Shown here one piece after another: positions 4,223-25,530 of a stretch of 35,972 nucleotides of DNA. This stretch comes from a virus, in the IMG/VR virus record IMGVR_UViG_3300025889_000403, positions 1 through 35,972 of that record; one strand, given 5' to 3'. The position numbers were made by a program, and so were the translations under genes. The notes under the pieces were generated by a model that worked only from the letters and a program-made list of their open reading frames with translations, did not search any database and was not told the origin of the DNA. Numbering within the stretch: the first letter of the stretch is position 1; each line of letters opens with the position of its first letter.

Positions 4223-4294
4223 GGGCGCGTGGTGTAATGGATAGCATTTTGGCCTTCTAAGCCGAAGATGGGGGTTCGATTCCCTCCGCGCCTG
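4223..4294 (+). tRNA. tRNA-Arg (anticodon UCU)
   Basis: Acceptor arm GGGCGCG (4223-4229) pairs with CGCGCCT (4287-4293) with one G-U pair. The anticodon loop CTTCTAA (4254-4260) sits on a five-pair stem, giving UCU. The T arm is GGGGG-TTCGATT-CCCTC. No 3' CCA is encoded. It reads AGA codons. Confidence 0.93.
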
Positions 4295-4300
4295 CCTTAT

Positions 4301-4375
4301 GGACCCTTAGCACAGTTAGGTTAGTGCATCCGGCTCATAACCGGACGGTCGTGAGTTCAAATCTCACAGGGTCCA
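4301..4375 (+). tRNA. tRNA-Met (anticodon CAU)
   Basis: Acceptor GGACCCT (4301-4307) pairs fully with AGGGTCC (4368-4374). Anticodon stem TCCGG/CCGGA encloses CTCATAA, anticodon CAU at 4336-4338. The T arm is GTGAG-TTCAAAT-CTCAC. It could be elongator Met, or Ile2 if C34 is modified. Six bases separate it from tRNA-Arg. Confidence 0.92.
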
Positions 4376-4397
4376 CCTATTCAAAGGAGATATACAA

Positions 4398-5788: not shown

Positions 5789-5870
5789 GCCGGGGTAGCC
5801 GAGCGGTCAAAGGCGTGAGGTTTAAGCCCTTATCTCAACGAGTTCGCAGGTTCGAATCCTGCCCCCGGCA
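5789..5870 (+). tRNA. tRNA-Leu (anticodon UAA), long variable arm
   Basis: Acceptor GCCGGGG (5789-5795) pairs with CCCCGGC (5863-5869), discriminator A. Anticodon stem TGAGG/CCTTA encloses TTTAAGC, giving UAA. A type II variable arm (TCTCAACGAGTTCG region) and T arm GCAGG-TTCGAAT-CCTGC follow. It reads TTA codons. Confidence 0.92.
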
Positions 5871-5879
5871 CTTATTCCT

Positions 5880-6369: not shown

Positions 6370-6443
6370 GGGCGTATGGCGCAGTCAGGTAGCGCAACGG
6401 GCTTTTAACCCGTTGGTCGTGGGTTCGAACCCCACTACGCCCG
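6370..6443 (+). tRNA. tRNA-Lys (anticodon UUU)
   Basis: Acceptor GGGCGTA (6370-6376) pairs with TACGCCC (6436-6442), discriminator G. The anticodon stem ACGGG/CCCGT encloses CTTTTAA, giving UUU. T arm GTGGG-TTCGAAC-CCCAC. No CCA encoded. It reads AAA. Confidence 0.94.
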
Positions 6444-6449
6444 CCATTC

Positions 6450-6496: not shown

Positions 6497-6769
6497 ATGA
6501 TTAGAAACAACAGGTCAGTAGATTTTATCAATCGCGGTGCTCCGCGTATCGGGAACAACAAAAACACACGAAATTTGAATAGGATTCAAAAATACTTAGC
6601 AAGTGAGGGTCCGAGGTCCTTTCATCAGATTCTAGACCACGTTAACAATAACTCAACCCACGGAATTACTCGTGGGTCTTTGTCCAATGTTCTTGGTAAA
6701 GGACCATTTGTTAAAACAGAATACGATAGTGTAAATCAAGTGTGGATTTACGACAACGACAACCTATAA
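6497..6769 (+). CDS. Probable winged-helix DNA-binding protein (90 aa)
   Basis: After a basic N-terminus (MIRNNRSVDFINRGAPRIGN) there is RIQKYLASEGPRSFHQILDH, then GITRGSLSNVLGKGPFVK and a final strand VNQVWIYDND. This order (helix, helix, recognition helix, wing) is typical of small winged-helix proteins that recognise DNA. The start follows AAAGGTGATTAAT. It may regulate the reductase gene 35 bases downstream. The fold is inferred from pattern only. Confidence 0.6.
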   Translation: MIRNNRSVDFINRGAPRIGNNKNTRNLNRIQKYLASEGPRSFHQILDHVNNNSTHGITRGSLSNVLGKGPFVKTEYDSVNQVWIYDNDNL

Positions 6770-6804
6770 ATAGTCGTCAAACATACGAAAAACGAGGTTT
6801 AGAT

Positions 6805-8682
6805 ATGAGACAAGAAAACGAGATTTTATCAGACATTACTGTGCACATGAAGTATGCCCGCTACCTTAACGACGAGTTAAGGCGTGAAACTTGGGAAGAA
6901 TTGTGTGAACGCAATATGCGAATGCACGTTAGCAAGTTTCCGGAATACAAAGAAGAAATTACTAATTTGTATCGGGATTATGTAGTTCCAAAGAAGATTT
7001 TGCCTTCAATGCGGTCATTTCAATTCGCAGGCAAACCGATTGAGATTTCACCCAATAGGGTTTACAATTGTGCCTACATGCCCGTTGAGGCTATGGAGGC
7101 TTTCCCTGAAACAATGTTCCTTCTTCTCGGAGGAACGGGTGTGGGTTATTCAGTTCAACGTCACCACGTTGAGAAATTGCCAGAAATTCGTAAACCACGC
7201 GCAGATAGAAAGAAGCGATATTTGGTTGCCGATTCTATCGAAGGTTGGGCGGATGCAGTTAAGGTCCTAATGCGTTCCTATTTCGGTGACCTTTCTTCCC
7301 GTCCTTTGTTTGACTTTTCAGACATTAGAGAGAAAGGAGCACCCTTGATTACTTCAGGTGGAAAGGCTCCGGGCGCAGACCCACTAAAAAACTGTCTTTT
7401 TCAAGTAGAACGTATCCTAGAAAGAAAGCAAGATGGCGACCAATTACAACCCATTGAGGTTCACGATATTATGTGCCATATTGCAGACGCAGTATTAGCA
7501 GGTGGAATTCGACGCGCCGCTCTTATCTCACTATTTAGCGCGGACGATATGGATATGATTACCTGTAAGTCCGGTCATTGGTGGGAAGATAACCCGCAAC
7601 GTGGACGTGCAAACAATAGTGCAGTATTGTTACGTAATCGCATTAGCCGTAGTTTCTTCATGAACCTATGGAAGAGGATTAAAGATTCAGGTTCAGGCGA
7701 GCCGGGGATTTATCTTTCTAACGACAAAGATTGGGGGACCAACCCGTGTTGTGAAATTGCCCTACGACCTTACCAATTCTGTAACTTAACTGAGATTAAT
7801 GCTTCAAGTATTGAAGATGAAGAGGACTTTTATCAACGCTGTTCTGCTGCTTCCTTCTTGGGAACACTACAAGCATCCTACTCAGACTTTCACTACTTGC
7901 GGGACATTTGGCAAAAGACTACTGAAAAGGATGCACTGCTTGGCGTGTCCATGACGGGTATTGCATCGAATGCGTTTCGTCGTCTTGATTTAGATATGAC
8001 TTCCGTGTTGAAAAAGGGTGCAGATACAGTAGCACTTACTAACGAACTTTGGGCTACTAATTTAGGCATCAATTCTGCCGCTCGTTTGACCTGTATTAAA
8101 CCTGCTGGAACTACAAGTCTGGTTCTCGGCTCTTCTTCAGGCATCCACGCATGGCATGACGATTACTATATCCGTCGAATCCGTGTGGGTAAGAACGAGG
8201 CTATCTATCAATATATGGTGGATAACCTTCCCGCATTGGTTGAAGATGAGGCTTTCAAGCCCCATACAACGGCAGTAATTTCAATCCCTCAGTCTGCCCC
8301 TGAAGGAGCAACGACGCGCTCAGAATCAGCCCTGAGCCTATTAGAACGCATTCGCACCTATTCCCGACATTGGGTTCGTGAGGGACACAATGATGGTGTG
8401 AATACACACAATGTATCAGCCACGGTTTCTATCCGTGAACATGAATGGGATGAAGTAGCAGAATGGATGTGGAATAATCGTGACTATTACAACGGCCTAT
8501 CTATTCTTCCTTACGATGGTGGAACCTATACACAGGCTCCTTTTGAAACAATCACGAAGGAGGAATATGAAGAGATGATTAAATTACTAAACGACATTGA
8601 CTTAACTCAGGTCGTTGAACTACAAGACAACACAGATTTGAAAGGAGAGATTGCTTGTGCCGGTGGAGTGTGCGAAATCTAA
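6805..8682 (+). CDS. nrdJ: Class II (B12-dependent) ribonucleoside-triphosphate reductase
   Basis: It reduces ribonucleotides to deoxyribonucleotides using adenosylcobalamin, so needs no oxygen and no small subunit. The 625-residue chain fits the monomeric class II type. Key residues are visible: Cys89 in VYNCAYMP (redox pair), Cys315 and Glu317 in NPCCEIALR (thiyl radical site), Cys326 in FCNLTE (redox partner), the phosphate-binding KPAGTTSLVLGSSSGIHAWH, and the C-terminal pair Cys618/Cys623 in CAGGVCEI that passes electrons. Start ATG 6805 follows GAGGTTTAGAT; an in-frame ATG further upstream (6742) lies inside the preceding gene. It supplies dNTPs for the virus polymerase; the host or medium must supply cobalamin. 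The neighbouring Cys316 replaces the usual Gly of NPCGEI. Confidence 0.93.
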   Translation: MRQENEILSDITVHMKYARYLNDELRRETWEELCERNMRMHVSKFPEYKEEITNLYRDYVVPKKILPSMRSFQFAGKPIEISPNRVYNCAYMPVEAMEAFPETMFLLLGGTGVGYSVQRHHVEKLPEIRKPRADRKKRYLVADSIEGWADAVKVLMRSYFGDLSSRPLFDFSDIREKGAPLITSGGKAPGADPLKNCLFQVERILERKQDGDQLQPIEVHDIMCHIADAVLAGGIRRAALISLFSADDMDMITCKSGHWWEDNPQRGRANNSAVLLRNRISRSFFMNLWKRIKDSGSGEPGIYLSNDKDWGTNPCCEIALRPYQFCNLTEINASSIEDEEDFYQRCSAASFLGTLQASYSDFHYLRDIWQKTTEKDALLGVSMTGIASNAFRRLDLDMTSVLKKGADTVALTNELWATNLGINSAARLTCIKPAGTTSLVLGSSSGIHAWHDDYYIRRIRVGKNEAIYQYMVDNLPALVEDEAFKPHTTAVISIPQSAPEGATTRSESALSLLERIRTYSRHWVREGHNDGVNTHNVSATVSIREHEWDEVAEWMWNNRDYYNGLSILPYDGGTYTQAPFETITKEEYEEMIKLLNDIDLTQVVELQDNTDLKGEIACAGGVCEI

Positions 8683-9090: not shown

Positions 9091-9335
9091 AGATGATGAT
9101 AGGAGAAAATAAGATGGTAGTATTTCACATTGTAGACGACGAAGAACTACCACCGATTACGATAAATTATAATGATGAACTTAACCCCGTGGTGTATCTA
9201 AATATGCATCACCGTTTGTGGCTAGCATTGGCGCGAAATGTTATTCCCGGTATTGCGGTTAACATTCAAGATAAACTCACAATGATTTGTGATAACTACA
9301 TCCGCGACCAAATTAGTATGGGGGACTTTGCTTGA
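9087..9335 (+). CDS. Hypothetical protein (82 aa)
   Basis: ATGA overlap with the upstream gene after AAGGAGGA. Acidic alpha/beta protein, with MVVFHIVDDEELPPITINYN and a hydrophobic middle helix (LWLALARNVIPGIAV) that is probably part of a core, not a membrane span. Later in-frame ATG codons exist. Function unknown. Confidence 0.5.
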   Translation: MKMMIGENKMVVFHIVDDEELPPITINYNDELNPVVYLNMHHRLWLALARNVIPGIAVNIQDKLTMICDNYIRDQISMGDFA

Positions 9336-10639
9336 GGCTATATCGCATCACAACACAAGGCGGCAACGTAGTTTGCCATTCTTCAACACGAAATTGGGGT
9401 TATGGTTATAATGAGAATGACGGTTTTCGTTTATATCAACGAATCAATGTTTCTATTTTTCAAGTAATGATGAAGACGAATCTAGGTGAAAATAAATCTC
9501 CTATTTTTTTCCGATTACCCAACAATCGTAAGGTTATCGTTTGGCAAGATGGTAGAAAGGTATTTATCAACGGGTTTCAAGTTCTAAAGAATAACGTTTC
9601 GGTCTTTTTACATACGATATTTATTATCGCCAATAGATATAACACTGATGAAGATTTTGATAACTACCTTCACAGACTTCTCACCGCAGACCCCGTGGTT
9701 ACAAAGGCCATTACTGATAAAGTTCTATACACCTTTTACAAAGACGATGGAACGGATGTAGAAACACTTCTAACCATCAACCTAATTGGTGATAAGGAGA
9801 TTGCCATTGAATTGAATCCCGGAACTTGGGTTCCTATGTCCGTTCCCAAGTTTAAGTCGTTTTACAATGCTGCTCAAGGTAGAAAGAATAAGTTCTCTCA
9901 CATCTCACCTGAAGAACTTTATCACTTCTGCACCGGCAAGTTGCTATCCGAGGGCGACCGTCGAATGACTCACGCCTTTTTGGAGCAAAACCGTAAGTCT
10001 GCTCTTCGTGAAAAGCGTAGCCTTGAATTGATTCAAGACCTACAAACGCGATTCAAAGGCATTGAAGCCTATGAGGTAGATATTAGTGGTTCAAAAACGT
10101 CAAACTACTTGTCCCAAGACAATAAAACCACGGAGATTCGTGATACTATGTTTGTTGAAGGTAAGCAACTAAATTGGTGCGTTCTAGACCGTAACCTAAA
10201 ATCTACGGGTCGTCAAGATGTTTCCACCTACCAAGTTACTGGCATTCGTAAAGAATATTTCACGATAGAAAAAAACGATAGTTATGAGAGTGGTAAATAT
10301 CCATCACTAACAATAAACGAAAGACAACACCCCCTAACTCAGCGCGATGGTAAACCTGCAAATTACGATTTCCTACGAGCGAAGAATGCTGATGGTGAAA
10401 CGGTATTTTTTTATCTAAACGGTCCTATCTGTATTGATAATGCTGATGCTGATGTTTCCCTTGGCGACCAATTCGCGGGTCGTGCTCTAGCATTACTAAA
10501 CGACAACCATTCTATGATGAATGTTAGCACACTGCGGGGCTATAGTGGGTTTATAAGAGCAAAGGAGGACACAATTCATGGCTTGTCTGAACTGCAAATC
10601 GTCGGTTCAAAGGAACTCCTTGAATATTTTGGAGTGTAG
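9332..10639 (+). CDS. Large unknown protein (435 aa), TTG start
   Basis: A long frame starts at TTG overlapping the previous TGA. Its first part is beta-rich (YRITTQGGNVVCHSS, IFFRLPNNRKVIVWQDGRKV). The middle is helical and charged (RRMTHAFLEQNRKSALREKR). The C-terminal third carries SGSKTSNYLSQDNKTTEIRD, NWCVLDRNLKSTGRQD and FFYLNGPICIDNADADVSLG. I see no Walker, nuclease or zinc motif. It lies between the reductase block and the TFB/E1 block and overlaps the TFB-like gene by 62 bases, so it may be co-expressed with them. I do not recognise it. Confidence 0.75.
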   Translation: MRLYRITTQGGNVVCHSSTRNWGYGYNENDGFRLYQRINVSIFQVMMKTNLGENKSPIFFRLPNNRKVIVWQDGRKVFINGFQVLKNNVSVFLHTIFIIANRYNTDEDFDNYLHRLLTADPVVTKAITDKVLYTFYKDDGTDVETLLTINLIGDKEIAIELNPGTWVPMSVPKFKSFYNAAQGRKNKFSHISPEELYHFCTGKLLSEGDRRMTHAFLEQNRKSALREKRSLELIQDLQTRFKGIEAYEVDISGSKTSNYLSQDNKTTEIRDTMFVEGKQLNWCVLDRNLKSTGRQDVSTYQVTGIRKEYFTIEKNDSYESGKYPSLTINERQHPLTQRDGKPANYDFLRAKNADGETVFFYLNGPICIDNADADVSLGDQFAGRALALLNDNHSMMNVSTLRGYSGFIRAKEDTIHGLSELQIVGSKELLEYFGV

Positions 10640-11195
10640 CAAATGCGGCCTCTATCAAGTAAGTTCTGTTACTATGTCCATTGGTGGGCAGATTGGCTCC
10701 GCCGGTAGAGAGCAAATAGAAATGGACCTATTGTGTAGTGAACTCGGAATTGAAGAGAGCGAGGAAGCGAAGAAGATTATGCGCTCCGCATACGTTCAGA
10801 TTCAGCGAGGATATTACACCAACGAAGAGTTAGCGGTTGTGTCGCTATACATCTATCAACGGATGAATAATCGTGTGGTAAACCTAAAGCAATTGTGCGA
10901 TATTATGGGGGTAAGCCGCAGAAGGGCTAGAAACATTTTAGCGCGAACAGAAGACTACTTCGACGTGAATCTAACATACACGTTGGAGGAAGCGCGGTCC
11001 TTTTGTGAAACCAACGGTTATGACGTGATGGAAATTGTTGAAAAGGTGGAAGGGCAATTACAGATAACCCGTAACATCTTAGCAGCTTGTGTATACTTGG
11101 GAACAAATCTCTCGTATAAGCAGGTCGCTGAACGCTTTTATACAAGCAAGAAATCTGTAATAATTTACACAAGGAAAGTAGAGGAATTGATATGA
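10578..11195 (+). CDS. TFB/TFIIB-like transcription initiation factor
   Basis: Cys3, Cys6, Cys20 and Cys23 (CLNCKSS ... ECSKCGLY) form a zinc ribbon like the TFB N-terminus that contacts RNA polymerase. Two repeats follow that look like cyclin folds: NEELAVVSLYIYQRMNNRVV with LKQLCDIMGVSRRRARNIL, and ITRNILAACVYLGTNLSYKQ with VAERFYTSKKSVIIYTRKVE. In TFB these repeats bind the TBP-promoter complex, and the second contains a helix-turn-helix for the BRE. At 205 residues it is shorter than host TFB (about 300), with a reduced B-finger/linker. It may redirect host RNA polymerase to virus promoters. ATG follows AAAGGAGGAC. The ATGA overlap with the E1-like gene ties the two in one operon. Confidence 0.78.
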   Translation: MACLNCKSSVQRNSLNILECSKCGLYQVSSVTMSIGGQIGSAGREQIEMDLLCSELGIEESEEAKKIMRSAYVQIQRGYYTNEELAVVSLYIYQRMNNRVVNLKQLCDIMGVSRRRARNILARTEDYFDVNLTYTLEEARSFCETNGYDVMEIVEKVEGQLQITRNILAACVYLGTNLSYKQVAERFYTSKKSVIIYTRKVEELI

Positions 11196-11743
11196 AGAAA
11201 GTAATGATTATTGGAACTGGTGGAATTGGAAGTTTTCTAATCCCACTTCTAGACCGAGTAGGACTGTATAATATCGTCGCATATGACGCGGATATTGTTG
11301 AGCAAAAGAATTTGTCTTACCAAAACTTCTCTCCGGAAGACGTTGGTGAGAAAAAGGTTCACGCTTTGGAGAAGCGTCATAAGATTGACGCCCAACCTTA
11401 CCTAGTTCTAACTGAGAAGCAGATTCAAGGTTACGACCTTGTGGTTTGCTGCGCGGATAACCTAGACGTGCGACGTTTGATTTATAACTCAGATGTTCCG
11501 TGGCTTGACCTTCGCGCTCAAGGACGAATGGGTTTGCTTGTTTGCTTCAAGGAGGACAAGAAACTTTACTCAACACTAACTGCCGGACCTAATGGTTCGT
11601 TTTCATGCCAAGGTGATGCGTGGGACCGCAGTAATGCGGGTGTTCACTTTACTCACGTCGCGGTTGCAGGTTATGGTGCAGAATGGATTCAGCGTTATTT
11701 TAACGACGAAGATGTTCACAAACACATTCAGGTGAGTGCGTGA
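11192..11743 (+). CDS. E1-like (ThiF/MoeB/UbaA family) adenylyltransferase
   Basis: E1-like enzymes adenylate the C-terminal Gly of ubiquitin-like proteins. The 183-residue chain keeps the nucleotide-binding GTGGIG (8-13), the acidic pair in YDADIVEQKNL (31-41), the ATP lysine in VGEKKVHAL (about 54-55) and Asp89 in DLVVCCADNLDVRR, the metal/AMP aspartate. The C-terminal GYGAEWIQRY fits the last helix of the fold. Departures from ThiF/MoeB: the usual Arg of NLxRQ is Tyr43 (NLSYQ), the four-Cys zinc site is missing, there is no rhodanese domain, and the length is well below 240. A catalytic Cys could be Cys139 (SFSCQGD) or Cys118. Partner candidates in this window are the ubiquitin-like protein at 3303 and the JAMM protease at 12019. 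Confidence 0.87.
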   Translation: MKKVMIIGTGGIGSFLIPLLDRVGLYNIVAYDADIVEQKNLSYQNFSPEDVGEKKVHALEKRHKIDAQPYLVLTEKQIQGYDLVVCCADNLDVRRLIYNSDVPWLDLRAQGRMGLLVCFKEDKKLYSTLTAGPNGSFSCQGDAWDRSNAGVHFTHVAVAGYGAEWIQRYFNDEDVHKHIQVSA

Positions 11744-11744
11744 A

Positions 11745-11909
11745 ATGGCGCGAGCAGAACGAGCATCAGGACGTGCATACTGCCGTTGGTGTAATCAAAA
11801 TATCCAAAAAGGAATGCCGGTTATTTGGGTTAGCACAGGTTCCTACGGAACGAAAGGCTACGTTCACAGTAATCCGGAAGACTGTGTTGGAAGATTAGAG
11901 GTGGAATAA
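11745..11909 (+). CDS. PARP-like zinc-finger micro-protein (54 aa)
   Basis: After an N-terminal helix it reads YCRWCNQNIQKGMPVIWV, then YVHSNPEDCVGRL. The Cys-x2-Cys...His-x5-Cys arrangement with KGMPVIW resembles the zinc finger of PARP type seen in small viral proteins. It starts one base after the E1-like stop and overlaps the next gene (TAATG). It sits between the E1-like and JAMM genes and could be an adaptor or target of that system. Confidence 0.6.
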   Translation: MARAERASGRAYCRWCNQNIQKGMPVIWVSTGSYGTKGYVHSNPEDCVGRLEVE

Positions 11910-12022
11910 TGGCTAATGAAAAGAGATTTTGCATAAACTGTGGTCGCGGTTTGGCAGGAACAAAGATGAGCGACCGATGCACACATTGTAAGAGAAAGAA
12001 ACAAAAGGAGATGAAAGAATGA
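11909..12022 (+). CDS. Zinc-ribbon micro-protein (37 aa)
   Basis: MANEKRFCINCGRGLAGTKM, then RCTHCKRKKQKEMKE: a two-knuckle zinc ribbon with a basic tail. Gene junctions TAATG and ATGA tie it between the E1-like and JAMM genes. Similar ribbons bind nucleic acid or protein partners. Confidence 0.6.
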   Translation: MANEKRFCINCGRGLAGTKMSDRCTHCKRKKQKEMKE

Positions 12023-12762
12023 GAATGGAAGAAATTGAAGGAGCATTGGAGATTGAAGACGACTTGGTTGATGCATGGTATGAATGTCTTACCTACGAGG
12101 AACGTAAAAACGTCTACGACTTCATGAAAGACGAGGGGCGTATTTACGCTATCATCGTTGAGGAAGGCGACGACTTAGAAGAAATTGAAGACCTATTTGG
12201 TGAGGAAAACTATGGTGTTGGTAGCGGTGTTATTGGAAATGATGATACCCTACACATCACAGTTCCCAACAATTACAGGGCAGGTGAGGTGACTTCTTTC
12301 TTCCGAAATAATGAACCAAAGGCCCCACTAAACGTGCGATATAATCGTGTAGAACCGGAAGTTTGGCAGACACCAATTAGGGAAATGTTTGGCGGCGACT
12401 ATGAGTGCGAATCCTTCCTTGAGGAGATTTGGAAACAATCTACTGAAACTCTCGGTGGATTGGAAGTTTCCGTAATCGTAGACCGTGATAACAACCTATT
12501 CTTGAACCACGGTTCGCCGGGATTTGTTGACTATGAGGGTGTAAATCTTCGCGGTATGCGTTTGCCTCTTCGTTGTTGGATTCACACCCACCCATTCGGC
12601 TATGCCTTTTGGAGTGGAACAGATAACCGAACCCTACGAAATTGGCGTCCCGTCCTACATTCAGCAATTGTGCTTGGAAAGGAGGAACATCTAAAATGGG
12701 AAAAGACAAGCGAAGGAGAGAGAATGACGAAGGTAGTGAACAGTCCTCAGTTCGAACTGTGA
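12019..12762 (+). CDS. JAMM/MPN+ metalloprotease (deubiquitinase-like)
   Basis: The C-terminal half has the exact JAMM signature HTHPFGYAFWSGTD (189-202): His189, His191 and Asp202 bind zinc, and Ser199 is in the conserved S-x2-D. Glu149 in GGLEVSVIV is a possible catalytic Glu one strand earlier. Proteins of this family cut after the Gly-Gly of ubiquitin-like modifiers, either to mature precursors or to reverse conjugation. Residues 1-120 are acidic and unrecognised and could bind the substrate. The gene is linked to the E1-like gene through two zinc micro-genes with overlapping starts and stops. The ubiquitin-like protein at 3303 ends GG-RY, a plausible maturation substrate. Confidence 0.85.
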   Translation: MRMEEIEGALEIEDDLVDAWYECLTYEERKNVYDFMKDEGRIYAIIVEEGDDLEEIEDLFGEENYGVGSGVIGNDDTLHITVPNNYRAGEVTSFFRNNEPKAPLNVRYNRVEPEVWQTPIREMFGGDYECESFLEEIWKQSTETLGGLEVSVIVDRDNNLFLNHGSPGFVDYEGVNLRGMRLPLRCWIHTHPFGYAFWSGTDNRTLRNWRPVLHSAIVLGKEEHLKWEKTSEGERMTKVVNSPQFEL

Positions 12763-20179: not shown

Positions 20180-20264
20180 GATATTATCGGCATAGAGATA
20201 CAACGATAATATCAGCCGTGTATATGTGGCGGTTGAAAGACATACGATTGGGTGCGAGGCCCAA
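20180..20264 (+). promoter_or_regulatory. Structured leader between RPA candidate and small gene
   Basis: A perfect inverted repeat GATATTATCG/CGATAATATC (20180-20189/20204-20213, 14-base loop) is followed by TTGGG/CCCAA (20248-20252/20260-20264). It fills a 112-base gap in a genome that almost never leaves gaps. There is no T tract, so it is more likely an operator or RNA leader than a terminator. Confidence 0.5.
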
Positions 20265-20280: not shown

Positions 20281-20460
20281 ATGATTATTAAAATGAATGA
20301 AATTGTGCTCGATATGAAAGAGGTTGAGTCTATCGAGTGGAAGCACGATGATGAAGAACAATATTCTGTTCGCTTTCATATGAAGAGTGGAAAGATGTTT
20401 ACTCGCATTGTGCATAAGAACCAACTAGATAACCTAATTGATGAATTTAAGGAGGAATGA
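20281..20460 (+). CDS. Hypothetical small protein (59 aa)
   Basis: ATG 20281 follows CAGGTGATAAAA, a strong site; an in-frame upstream ATG at 20218 would read through the structured leader and is rejected. The protein MIIKMNEIVLDMKEVESIEW continues as alternating beta strands (QYSVRFHMKSGKMFTRIVHK), then an acidic helix. Possibly a small beta-barrel binding partner. Unknown. Confidence 0.6.
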   Translation: MIIKMNEIVLDMKEVESIEWKHDDEEQYSVRFHMKSGKMFTRIVHKNQLDNLIDEFKEE

Positions 20461-22959: not shown

Positions 22960-23180
22960 AACTAACTCTACACATAGAGATTGATACAGACGAGAGGTGG
23001 GACTCACCATCCTACCTTATTGAAACGCTAAAGTATGCGTTTGAAGAAACGCTACGCGGCGATGGAATTAAAATAGGTGGTATTGAATATGATTATAGAT
23101 TACAACAAAATGAATCAGAAAGTGTCCTTGAGATATCGGGATGCGGAGAAGAAGAGGATAGTGAAAGAGCAAAGTTTTGA
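22956..23180 (+). CDS. Hypothetical protein overlapping polymerase start (74 aa)
   Basis: ATGA overlap upstream. It overlaps the polymerase gene by 92 bases in another frame, the longest overlap in the window. The first 50 residues (MKLTLHIEIDTDERWDSPSY...) look like a regular alpha/beta protein; the C-terminal part shared with the polymerase frame is acidic and low in complexity. It could be real or truncated in use. No family. Confidence 0.45.
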   Translation: MKLTLHIEIDTDERWDSPSYLIETLKYAFEETLRGDGIKIGGIEYDYRLQQNESESVLEISGCGEEEDSERAKF

Positions 23181-25530
23181 ACCCTACTTCTATATCGAAA
23201 GCGGTTCACATAGAGAAACAAATCGCATTGTAGCAAGGACTCGCTTTGGTGAAAAGTCTTATAACATTAAAATGGTTACGGGAACGTGGAAGAATCTCAA
23301 CGGACGTTCCCTTACCCGCGTGTATTACGGAAACCCCGACAACCGTTGGAATGTTAAGACCTACTTTGAGAATGAGGGTATTAAAACTTATCAAGCCGAT
23401 GTGGATGTTTCTCGCTTGTATTCCCTTGATTGCTTAACCGAGATTCCGGAATACGAATTGCGAAAGTGGTATTTCGATATTGAAACTCAAGTGGGGGGCG
23501 AACATGACGGTAAAGTTACAGTTATTAGTTTGTATGATAACTATACAGACAAATATACTATAATGACTTGGTTTCCTAAGGGACACCAACATGAGTTATT
23601 GGCCGAAGGCTACACTCTTATAGTTTACTCTTCCGAAGAGCATATGTTTAGGGACTTCCTTCGCAAGATTGAATATGAAGACCCCGACATGATTCTTGGA
23701 TGGTTTATCATGGGTTACGATATTCCCTTCATCATCCGTCGAATGATTGCTTGTGGACTTAACCCATTGGATATGTCCCCACTTAATCAAGTGAAGGGTG
23801 TTTACAAGAAAGATGATGAGGATAACCGCGAGTTTAGTTTTGACTTCAAAATTGACCGCTATTTCAATAGCGACCAAGTGATTGACGGACGGCTAACCGT
23901 GTGCCTAATGGATAGATTTGAACGTCTTTGGATTGACTCACAGATGGGAACACTACCCTCTCTTTCTCTAGACTACTGTTCCTCTCGCGTATTAGGTGAG
24001 AAGAAAGTAGTGTCGCAGAAGTTTGAGGGACAGGAGTTTTATGAGCGCGGGTGGTTAGAAGATACTCAGACTTATCTTGACTACGCTAAGGTGGACGTTG
24101 AACTGTGTGTGAAGATTGATGAAGTGATGAACGTATCGGAGAATCAGATGGCTCTTCAACGGCTAATCGTCTGCCCATTTGGAAACACATATCATAACTC
24201 GCAAATGGGTGGTATGTATTTCATGCGTAAAGCAGATTGGATTCCCCCAACAGGAGTGAAGGGAAATAAGGAAAAATTTGAGGCCGCTTTCGTCATGGAC
24301 CCTGCTCAATATAACACCTTTGGTTTGCACGAAAATGTGGCTATCTTTGACTTCAAATCTCTCTACCCTACGATGATGGCTAGCAATAACATTTCTTGGG
24401 AAACTAAAAGTGATAGCGGCTACCCCGTTTGGTGGAACACTCCGAAGTCTTTGGCTGACTATGACGGGAAACCGAGCATTCATTTCAGTAATGTTAAAGA
24501 AGGACTACTACCTCAAGCAGTTATGGAAATGATGGACCTGCGGGCCGAATACAAACTTCTGATGAAAGAAGCCACCACCGAAGAAGAGAAGAGAAAGTGG
24601 AACTCAGCGCAGATGGCTACAAAGAGAGCCGTTAACGCTTTCTACGGAATCCTTGCAAAAGATGGCTACGGTTGGGGGGATATGGAAATGGCTAAATCTA
24701 TCACCGCTTCTGCTCGCCGTGCTATGCGTCTTACTGCTTTTAAAGCACAGGAACTCGGTTACGAAGTTATCTATGGACACACAGACTCCGTATTTATCAA
24801 GGTCCGTGATGTTGAAGACGCGCACCAATTGAGAGAGAAACTTAACCACTATATCAGCCGCGAGGTTTTTCGTGACCCCGTGGAATTGGAGTTTGAAAAG
24901 TTTGCTGAGAAGTTTTTCTTAACTAAGAAAAAGAATCGCTACTGCGGTTGGCTCTCTTGGAAGGATGGAGATTTTCTAGATGAGAATAAGTTCTTTGTAA
25001 TGGGCTTTGAGATGAAGAAGAGTAACGAAACAACCTTCGCTAAGGAGTATCAGGAAAATCTACTAAAGATGATTTCACTATTCGAAAACAAAGAAACCGT
25101 TATTAAGTATTGTAATGACTCCTATGGAGAAATCATTAAGGGACAGGTAGAACTTAATAATGTAATTAAACGTTCTCGACTTCGTAAACCAATCGAAGAA
25201 TACGATGCAATCGGTGGTGGGGTAGCGGGGATTGTATATTACAATCAACAAGGCTATGGAAATATTGGAGTGGGAGATTCATACTACTTTATGCGTATAG
25301 ATAACAAAGACCTAGACGAGAAATGTTATCTACTAAACGGTGAATCTAAAGAGGCTAACTACATCGCCTTTAAGAACCTAAGTGAAGCTGAACAATTTAC
25401 TCCCGACTTAGACTTTATCGCTGAGGCTGAAGTGATTAATAAATCCGAACTAATTTTTGAAAGTTTAGGTTGGAATATTAAGGAAATTAAACGCGATGTA
25501 TTTCAACAAACATTAGATTCGTGGTGGTAA
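23089..25530 (+). CDS. polB: Family B DNA polymerase
   Basis: Replicative polymerase with proofreading (813 residues). Exonuclease motifs: Exo I YFDIET (128-133), Exo II ILGWFIMGYD (202-211), Exo III YAKVD (332-336). Polymerase motifs: A DFKSLYP (421-427), B KRAVNAFYG (512-520), C YGHTDS (562-567). Motif B has NAFYG where many have NSxYG, and motif C has His for the usual variable residue before DTDS-type acid; all catalytic acids stay. The order and length fit archaeal and viral PolB without a protein-priming insertion. ATG 23089 follows AGGTGG by eight bases. Clamp, loader, primase and helicase in the same block complete the replisome. Confidence 0.96.
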   Translation: MIIDYNKMNQKVSLRYRDAEKKRIVKEQSFEPYFYIESGSHRETNRIVARTRFGEKSYNIKMVTGTWKNLNGRSLTRVYYGNPDNRWNVKTYFENEGIKTYQADVDVSRLYSLDCLTEIPEYELRKWYFDIETQVGGEHDGKVTVISLYDNYTDKYTIMTWFPKGHQHELLAEGYTLIVYSSEEHMFRDFLRKIEYEDPDMILGWFIMGYDIPFIIRRMIACGLNPLDMSPLNQVKGVYKKDDEDNREFSFDFKIDRYFNSDQVIDGRLTVCLMDRFERLWIDSQMGTLPSLSLDYCSSRVLGEKKVVSQKFEGQEFYERGWLEDTQTYLDYAKVDVELCVKIDEVMNVSENQMALQRLIVCPFGNTYHNSQMGGMYFMRKADWIPPTGVKGNKEKFEAAFVMDPAQYNTFGLHENVAIFDFKSLYPTMMASNNISWETKSDSGYPVWWNTPKSLADYDGKPSIHFSNVKEGLLPQAVMEMMDLRAEYKLLMKEATTEEEKRKWNSAQMATKRAVNAFYGILAKDGYGWGDMEMAKSITASARRAMRLTAFKAQELGYEVIYGHTDSVFIKVRDVEDAHQLREKLNHYISREVFRDPVELEFEKFAEKFFLTKKKNRYCGWLSWKDGDFLDENKFFVMGFEMKKSNETTFAKEYQENLLKMISLFENKETVIKYCNDSYGEIIKGQVELNNVIKRSRLRKPIEEYDAIGGGVAGIVYYNQQGYGNIGVGDSYYFMRIDNKDLDEKCYLLNGESKEANYIAFKNLSEAEQFTPDLDFIAEAEVINKSELIFESLGWNIKEIKRDVFQQTLDSWW

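Follow-up and report, generated by a model that had tools for sequence, protein, structure and literature searches.

A short viral TFB with a reduced connector at a conserved locus of a presumed Poseidoniales virus

The redirection of host RNA polymerase by archaeal viruses is a largely open question, and a short gene in the viral DNA studied here raises it in a particular form. From the sequence, its product of 205 residues had been proposed to be a trimmed TFB; is it one, which parts were trimmed, and what might such a protein do for the virus? The DNA, termed the window throughout, is the 35,972-bp IMG/VR virus record IMGVR_UViG_3300025889_000403 at its full length, a fragment of about 36 kb of a viral genome.

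The virus and the vTFB locus

In the window, genes for a family B DNA polymerase (PolB), a clamp loader and a TCP-1/cpn60-family chaperonin are accompanied by genes for an ERCC4 nuclease, a PD-(D/E)XK nuclease and a class II ribonucleotide reductase, and by four tRNA genes, Arg(TCT), Met(CAT), Leu(TAA) and Lys(TTT), at positions 4223-4296, 4301-4377, 5789-5871 and 6370-6446, respectively. This gene content fits a tailed virus of the magrovirus kind, probably one of marine archaea. Chaperonin genes and comparable replication modules are known in viruses of marine group II (Poseidoniales) (PMC5332604; PMC10768690), and from the literature on similar gene content the host is presumed to belong to this group; the term “Poseidoniales virus” is used here in that inferred sense, because our own scan of cellular genomes with an alignment of E1-like proteins recovered no provirus or host-associated contig. 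The ribonucleotide reductase (6742-8682) shares about 61% identity with the Microcystis phage Mel-JY01 enzyme and 60% with its counterpart in an Oceanospirillum phage, and since it is far closer to phage records than is the PolB of the window, horizontal transfer is probable.

The gene of interest, termed vTFB for the short-form TFB that we take it to encode, spans 10578-11195 on the plus strand, opens with an ATG codon and was assigned from its homologs and predicted fold. A Shine-Dalgarno sequence, AAAGGAGG, was recognized at 10561-10568 on the same strand. The vTFB start is overlapped by the end of an upstream gene (9332-10639, plus strand) that encodes a 435-residue protein of no known family, and the vTFB stop overlaps, as ATGA at 11192-11195, the start of a gene for an E1-like protein of the ThiF/MoeB family (11192-11743, plus strand; Pfam ThiF, 1.6e-16). 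An operon shared with the E1-like protein, as the sequence-only reading had it, is thus borne out in the form of overlapping genes. On the 3' side of the E1-like gene lies one for a JAB-like protein (12019-12762, plus strand), for which the matches are weak (Pfam Prok-JAB, 0.017; NCBIfam PRTRC_A, 0.056). The two proteins in this order (11192-12762) weakly match PRTRC ThiF and PRTRC protein A, and the pair may have a ubiquitin-like or a tail-assembly role. In the 435-residue protein, residues C367, D369, D379-Q380, R384 and N390-D391 are invariant; profile searches returned neither a Pfam family nor a solved structure for it, and a DNA-pattern scan with this protein alone found no further relatives.

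Two kinds of DNA elements were also recorded. The palindrome ACCATATGGT, often set within a larger dyad, CAAAGTGC-AACCATATGGTA-GCACTTTG, belongs to related contigs and not to the window. It was found in contigs G001 (L104), G002 (L109), G003 (L113), G004 (L115), G006 (L125), G008 (L126), G013 (L130), G015 (L137) and G016 (L139, L140), and was absent from contig G005. By k-mer and position scans, 3-11 copies per 80 kb were observed against fewer than 0.1 expected, and all copies cluster in a single stretch of small genes about 1.5-5 kb long, which in the contigs checked lies about 9-13 kb from the TFB gene. The palindrome may possibly act as an operator or early promoter, as a replication iteron or as an RNA hairpin. 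In the window itself a hairpin, TTGGGTGCGAGGCCCAA, lies at 20248-20264, shortly 5' of a start codon at 20281; it has no match in Rfam, and similar GGTGCGARGCC elements precede genes near position 41234 of G008 and near position 49371 of G003.

Identification of the short protein as a TFB

When the vTFB sequence was searched alone against Pfam, neither the curated cut-off for the TFIIB repeat nor that for the TFIIB zinc ribbon was reached, and the only matches were to HTH families (Sigma70_r4, 4.4e-4; HTH_23, 0.009). A phmmer search of the PDB returned chance matches only, and tblastn against phage records found nothing. A first scan of viral contigs with vTFB matched, in L001 and L002, a short ORF directly 5' of a terminase-like ORF; both were rejected as TFB relatives because these ORFs are probably terminase small-subunit-like HTH proteins.

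The neighboring gene offered a different route. A search with the single E1-like sequence recovered 12 loci, and a search with an alignment of E1-like proteins gave 263 matches, 80 of which were kept; relatives in viral contigs were 53-63% identical in the aligned set. A TFB-like ORF lies upstream of the E1-like gene in nearly all loci with sufficient upstream sequence, and a homolog of the 435-residue gene stands directly 5' of the TFB gene in 78 of 84 loci. The TFBs at this locus come in two sizes, short forms of 200-231 residues, among them the window protein, and long forms of about 264-318 residues. The profile of the long forms matches human TFIIB at 2e-18 and the Pyrococcus TFB core at 1.1e-17, and one long form (L013) exceeds the Pfam gathering cut-offs for both the TFIIB repeat and the TFIIB zinc ribbon, while its match to the NCBIfam TFIIB model, at 4.3e-30, falls below the cut-off of that model. 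Judged from these sequence matches, the long forms are without doubt TFBs.

Profile-profile comparison (hhalign) aligns the short and the long forms over their whole length with a probability of 99.9 and an E-value of 2.3e-32, at pairwise identities of 14-22%. The four cysteines of the Cys-x2-Cys...Cys-x2-Cys zinc ribbon are invariant in the 18 short forms and in an alignment of 34 mixed homologs. With the profile of the short forms alone, bacterial HTH regulators precede TFIIB in the PDB, and this ranking, together with the HTH families that were the sole single-sequence matches in Pfam, would suit a different zinc-ribbon/HTH regulator that resembles TFB, for example one of a sigma-region-4-like or transposase type. 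Against such a regulator stand the whole-length profile match to the long viral TFBs, the synteny, and the two full cyclin repeats, with TFIIB, TFB and Brf chains as top structural matches, in a model built from short forms only, and we regard it as very improbable.

The predicted structure supports the assignment as a TFB. An AlphaFold2 model from a mixed alignment of short and long forms (pLDDT 86.6, pTM 0.62) shows the strands of the ribbon followed by five plus five helices. The N-terminal zinc ribbon, identified from alignment and model, comprises residues 1-27 (10578-10658, plus strand) with cysteines 3, 6, 20 and 23, and is joined by a residual connector of residues 28-43 (10659-10706, plus strand) to cyclin repeat I, residues 44-128 (10707-10961, plus strand), the helices of which are modeled at 44-56, 61-74, 82-96, 103-110 and 114-128. 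Cyclin repeat II, residues 136-204 (10983-11189, plus strand), is shortened and yet retains five modeled helices, at 136-146, 151-158, 165-175, 180-187 and 191-204. Because pLDDT drops to about 50 in the connector, at residues 31-40, the orientation of ribbon and core in the model is unreliable. Among solved structures the model superposes best on 1d3u_B, from a Pyrococcus TBP-TFB-DNA complex, at Z 15.0 and 3.7 Å over 169 residues, and TFIIB and Brf chains head the Foldseek list. The two cyclin repeats are thus shared with the Pyrococcus woesei TFB core (1d3u and 1ais, Z 15.0 and 14.4), which nevertheless is only 16-18% identical to vTFB and differs from it in the BRE residues. A rudivirus-type vTFB was also matched by fold (BFVD A0A6M3VXQ0, E 4.7e-4). 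That the fold was steered by the long TFBs in the alignment was considered and rejected: a second model, for which the alignment was restricted to short forms, reached pLDDT 82.4 with unchanged helices and the same best match (Z 13.8).

The zinc ribbon and two cyclin-like repeats that the sequence-only reading had placed within 205 residues are therefore both found, as C3-C6 and C20-C23 and as twice five modeled helices, and its proposal of a virus-encoded, trimmed TFB beside an E1-like protein is upheld by the synteny of the locus, the profile-profile comparison, the tree and the predicted structure; the cyclin fold is present in the predicted structure, and the best match is to TFB and not to an unrelated zinc protein. 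Across the short-form genomes the Pfam TFIIB-repeat cut-off was not reached, and since this holds for the window protein as well, such proteins go unannotated.

The trimmed parts and the short-form lineage

Canonical TFB carries the B-reader and B-linker between ribbon and core (PMC7289017). From the last ribbon cysteine (C23) to the first cyclin helix, the window protein has 20 residues and the short forms 18-33, as against 41-75 in the long forms; past repeat II, the C-terminal tail measures 0-4 residues in short forms versus 13-31 in long ones, and repeat II is itself shorter in the short forms. By these comparisons, the connector (B-reader/B-linker) and the C-terminal tail are the specific parts trimmed from vTFB, which is without most of the reader and linker that full-length cellular TFB possesses.

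A putative BRE-recognition helix (residues 191-204; 11148-11189, plus strand) was placed by comparison with human TFIIB, whose BRE-contact residues in repeat II, V283 and R286, have K192 and I195 at their positions in vTFB. When retention of the BRE contacts was checked, as had been proposed at the outset, these two were thus found not to be conserved here. The position after I195 is R or K in 16 of 18 short forms and isoleucine in the window. The long viral forms vary at the BRE-contact positions too, with R in 11 of 30, so that these viruses probably do not share one BRE preference.

In an unrooted maximum-likelihood tree of 48 TFBs, 18 short and 30 long forms are split by a branch with support of 100/98. 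Because cellular TFB has the connector, we infer that the connector was lost rather than gained, a polarity that the unrooted tree does not itself supply. A protein that is shortened, evolves fast and retains 14-22% identity to the long forms might be read as a decaying remnant of a long viral TFB. An intact short-form ORF of constant architecture, however, occurs in at least 18 distinct viruses, and close short-form pairs have dN/dS values of 0.11-0.33, indicative of purifying selection, in a measure that excludes the window copy, whose nearest relative, at about 38%, is too distant. Given this purifying selection within the short-form lineage, a decayed gene was rejected, and we assign this reading hardly any probability.

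Exactly one TFB was found in each of 18 records (17 contigs of 86-97 kb and the window), none of which holds a TBP above the cut-off or a second, full-length TFB; since the window covers only 36 kb of its virus, that virus may carry another TFB outside it. One TFB-bearing contig, L057, measures 184,733 bp, about twice the usual 85-97 kb, and is either an outlier in genome size or a concatenated assembly. In a comparison covering 13 of the long contigs and the window, PolB (23077-25530 in the window) is a single chain of 808-886 residues in the short-TFB records, whereas in long-TFB records it is mostly split into chains of about 550-578 and 275-300 residues. The short TFB thus goes with a single-chain PolB, and the trait marks a lineage.

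Proposed function and relation to known systems

In TFB, the ribbon binds the polymerase dock, the cyclin core binds the BRE and the linker reaches the active site (PMC7289017). The parts kept in vTFB would thus be those that bind dock, TBP and promoter DNA, and the part mostly lost the one that enters the active-site cleft, from which we infer a connector-less mode of recruitment. Upon expression of the operon, the cyclin core of vTFB would bind host TBP and promoter DNA, and its ribbon would bind the polymerase dock, such that host RNA polymerase would be recruited to viral promoters. Recruitment is the simplest reading because vTFB is the sole recognized viral TFB and occupies the locus at which sister viruses keep a long TFB, and on balance we think it probable that this member of a divergent lineage has that function. 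So poor in connector, vTFB could not aid template loading or start-site choice in the usual way; with reader and linker almost absent, melting and start choice would rest on the polymerase, TFE, the promoter or a partner. The lack of most of the reader and linker, which should impair open-complex formation, and the altered BRE-contact residues speak against recruitment. The 435-residue protein is, by position alone, the obvious candidate for such a partner. More tentatively, the whole lineage may initiate transcription with a TFB devoid of reader and linker, either because host polymerase and TFE suffice on viral promoters or because the 435-residue protein supplies the function in trans. Nor was a TATA-like box over-represented at a constant distance 5' of genes in k-mer and position scans; with most genes in long operons, however, so crude a method does not establish that a TATA box is absent.

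A protein that keeps ribbon and core but hardly anything of the segment extending to the active site might instead serve as a decoy, sitting on the dock and/or on TBP-promoter complexes that then fail to open, and so turning host transcription off, in line with the locking of the polymerase that the sequence-only reading had named as its alternative. There is a precedent among archaeal virus proteins in ORF145/RIP of Acidianus two-tailed virus, a mimic of the TFB B-linker that acts on and blocks the host polymerase (PMC9501531). RIP, however, is a helical plug in the DNA channel that is not homologous to vTFB, and it mimics the missing part rather than the kept one. Moreover, these genomes have no other TFB, and vTFB sits at the long-TFB locus of their relatives, for which the same role is the parsimonious assumption, and a virus in which no RNA polymerase was recognized here would silence its own transcription too. 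We therefore consider inhibition by a decoy unlikely.

Sulfolobus TFB3, a member of the TFB family with a non-canonical architecture, keeps one cyclin repeat only. This TFB paralog is no substitute for TFB and activates together with it in trans (PMC7289017), and by analogy vTFB might act alongside host TFB as a co-activator and not as its replacement. Yet TFB3 is a cellular, UV-induced protein, a host paralog of one crenarchaeal group, whereas vTFB is viral and, unlike TFB3, keeps both cyclin repeats and the recognition helix; a co-activator of this type seems to us decidedly improbable.

Among viral TFBs, those of rudiviruses such as Saccharolobus solfataricus rod-shaped virus 1 are archaeal virus TFB homologs of putative function (PMC9501531); they differ from vTFB in being longer (270 residues) and in belonging to a virus group unrelated to that of the window. 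The review that names them describes the promoter preference of viral TFBs as untested (PMC9501531). Closer in kind is Poseidoniales virus YSH_150918 (Magrovirales, Aoguangviridae), on whose map a TFB gene is drawn and which, like the virus of the window, is a tailed virus that combines a viral TFB with a PolB, a clamp loader and a chaperonin (PMC10768690). Its PolB is drawn as PolB-NTD/CTD, in contrast to the single-chain PolB of the short-TFB records. The long forms found here at the same locus of related viruses, probably magroviruses, keep a tail at the C terminus and a connector of 41-75 residues, and the window lineage has neither; the TFB of YSH_150918 is taken from its map. In the magrovirus literature compared, we found no description of a short, connector-less TFB lineage and, besides the YSH_150918 map, no mention of TFB or TFIIB; Philosof 2017 lay outside this comparison, and priority is uncertain. 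TFBs in magroviruses and viral TFBs in rudiviruses are thus already known, and the new element here is the presence of two TFB types at one locus.

The long and short orthologs at this one locus, divided by the 100/98 split, form a series that isolates a single part of TFB, and with this natural series the role of the B-reader and B-linker becomes testable with natural proteins. If the proposed recruitment by a connector-poor TFB is true, the functions of the B-reader and B-linker would be separable in nature from the recruitment of the polymerase.
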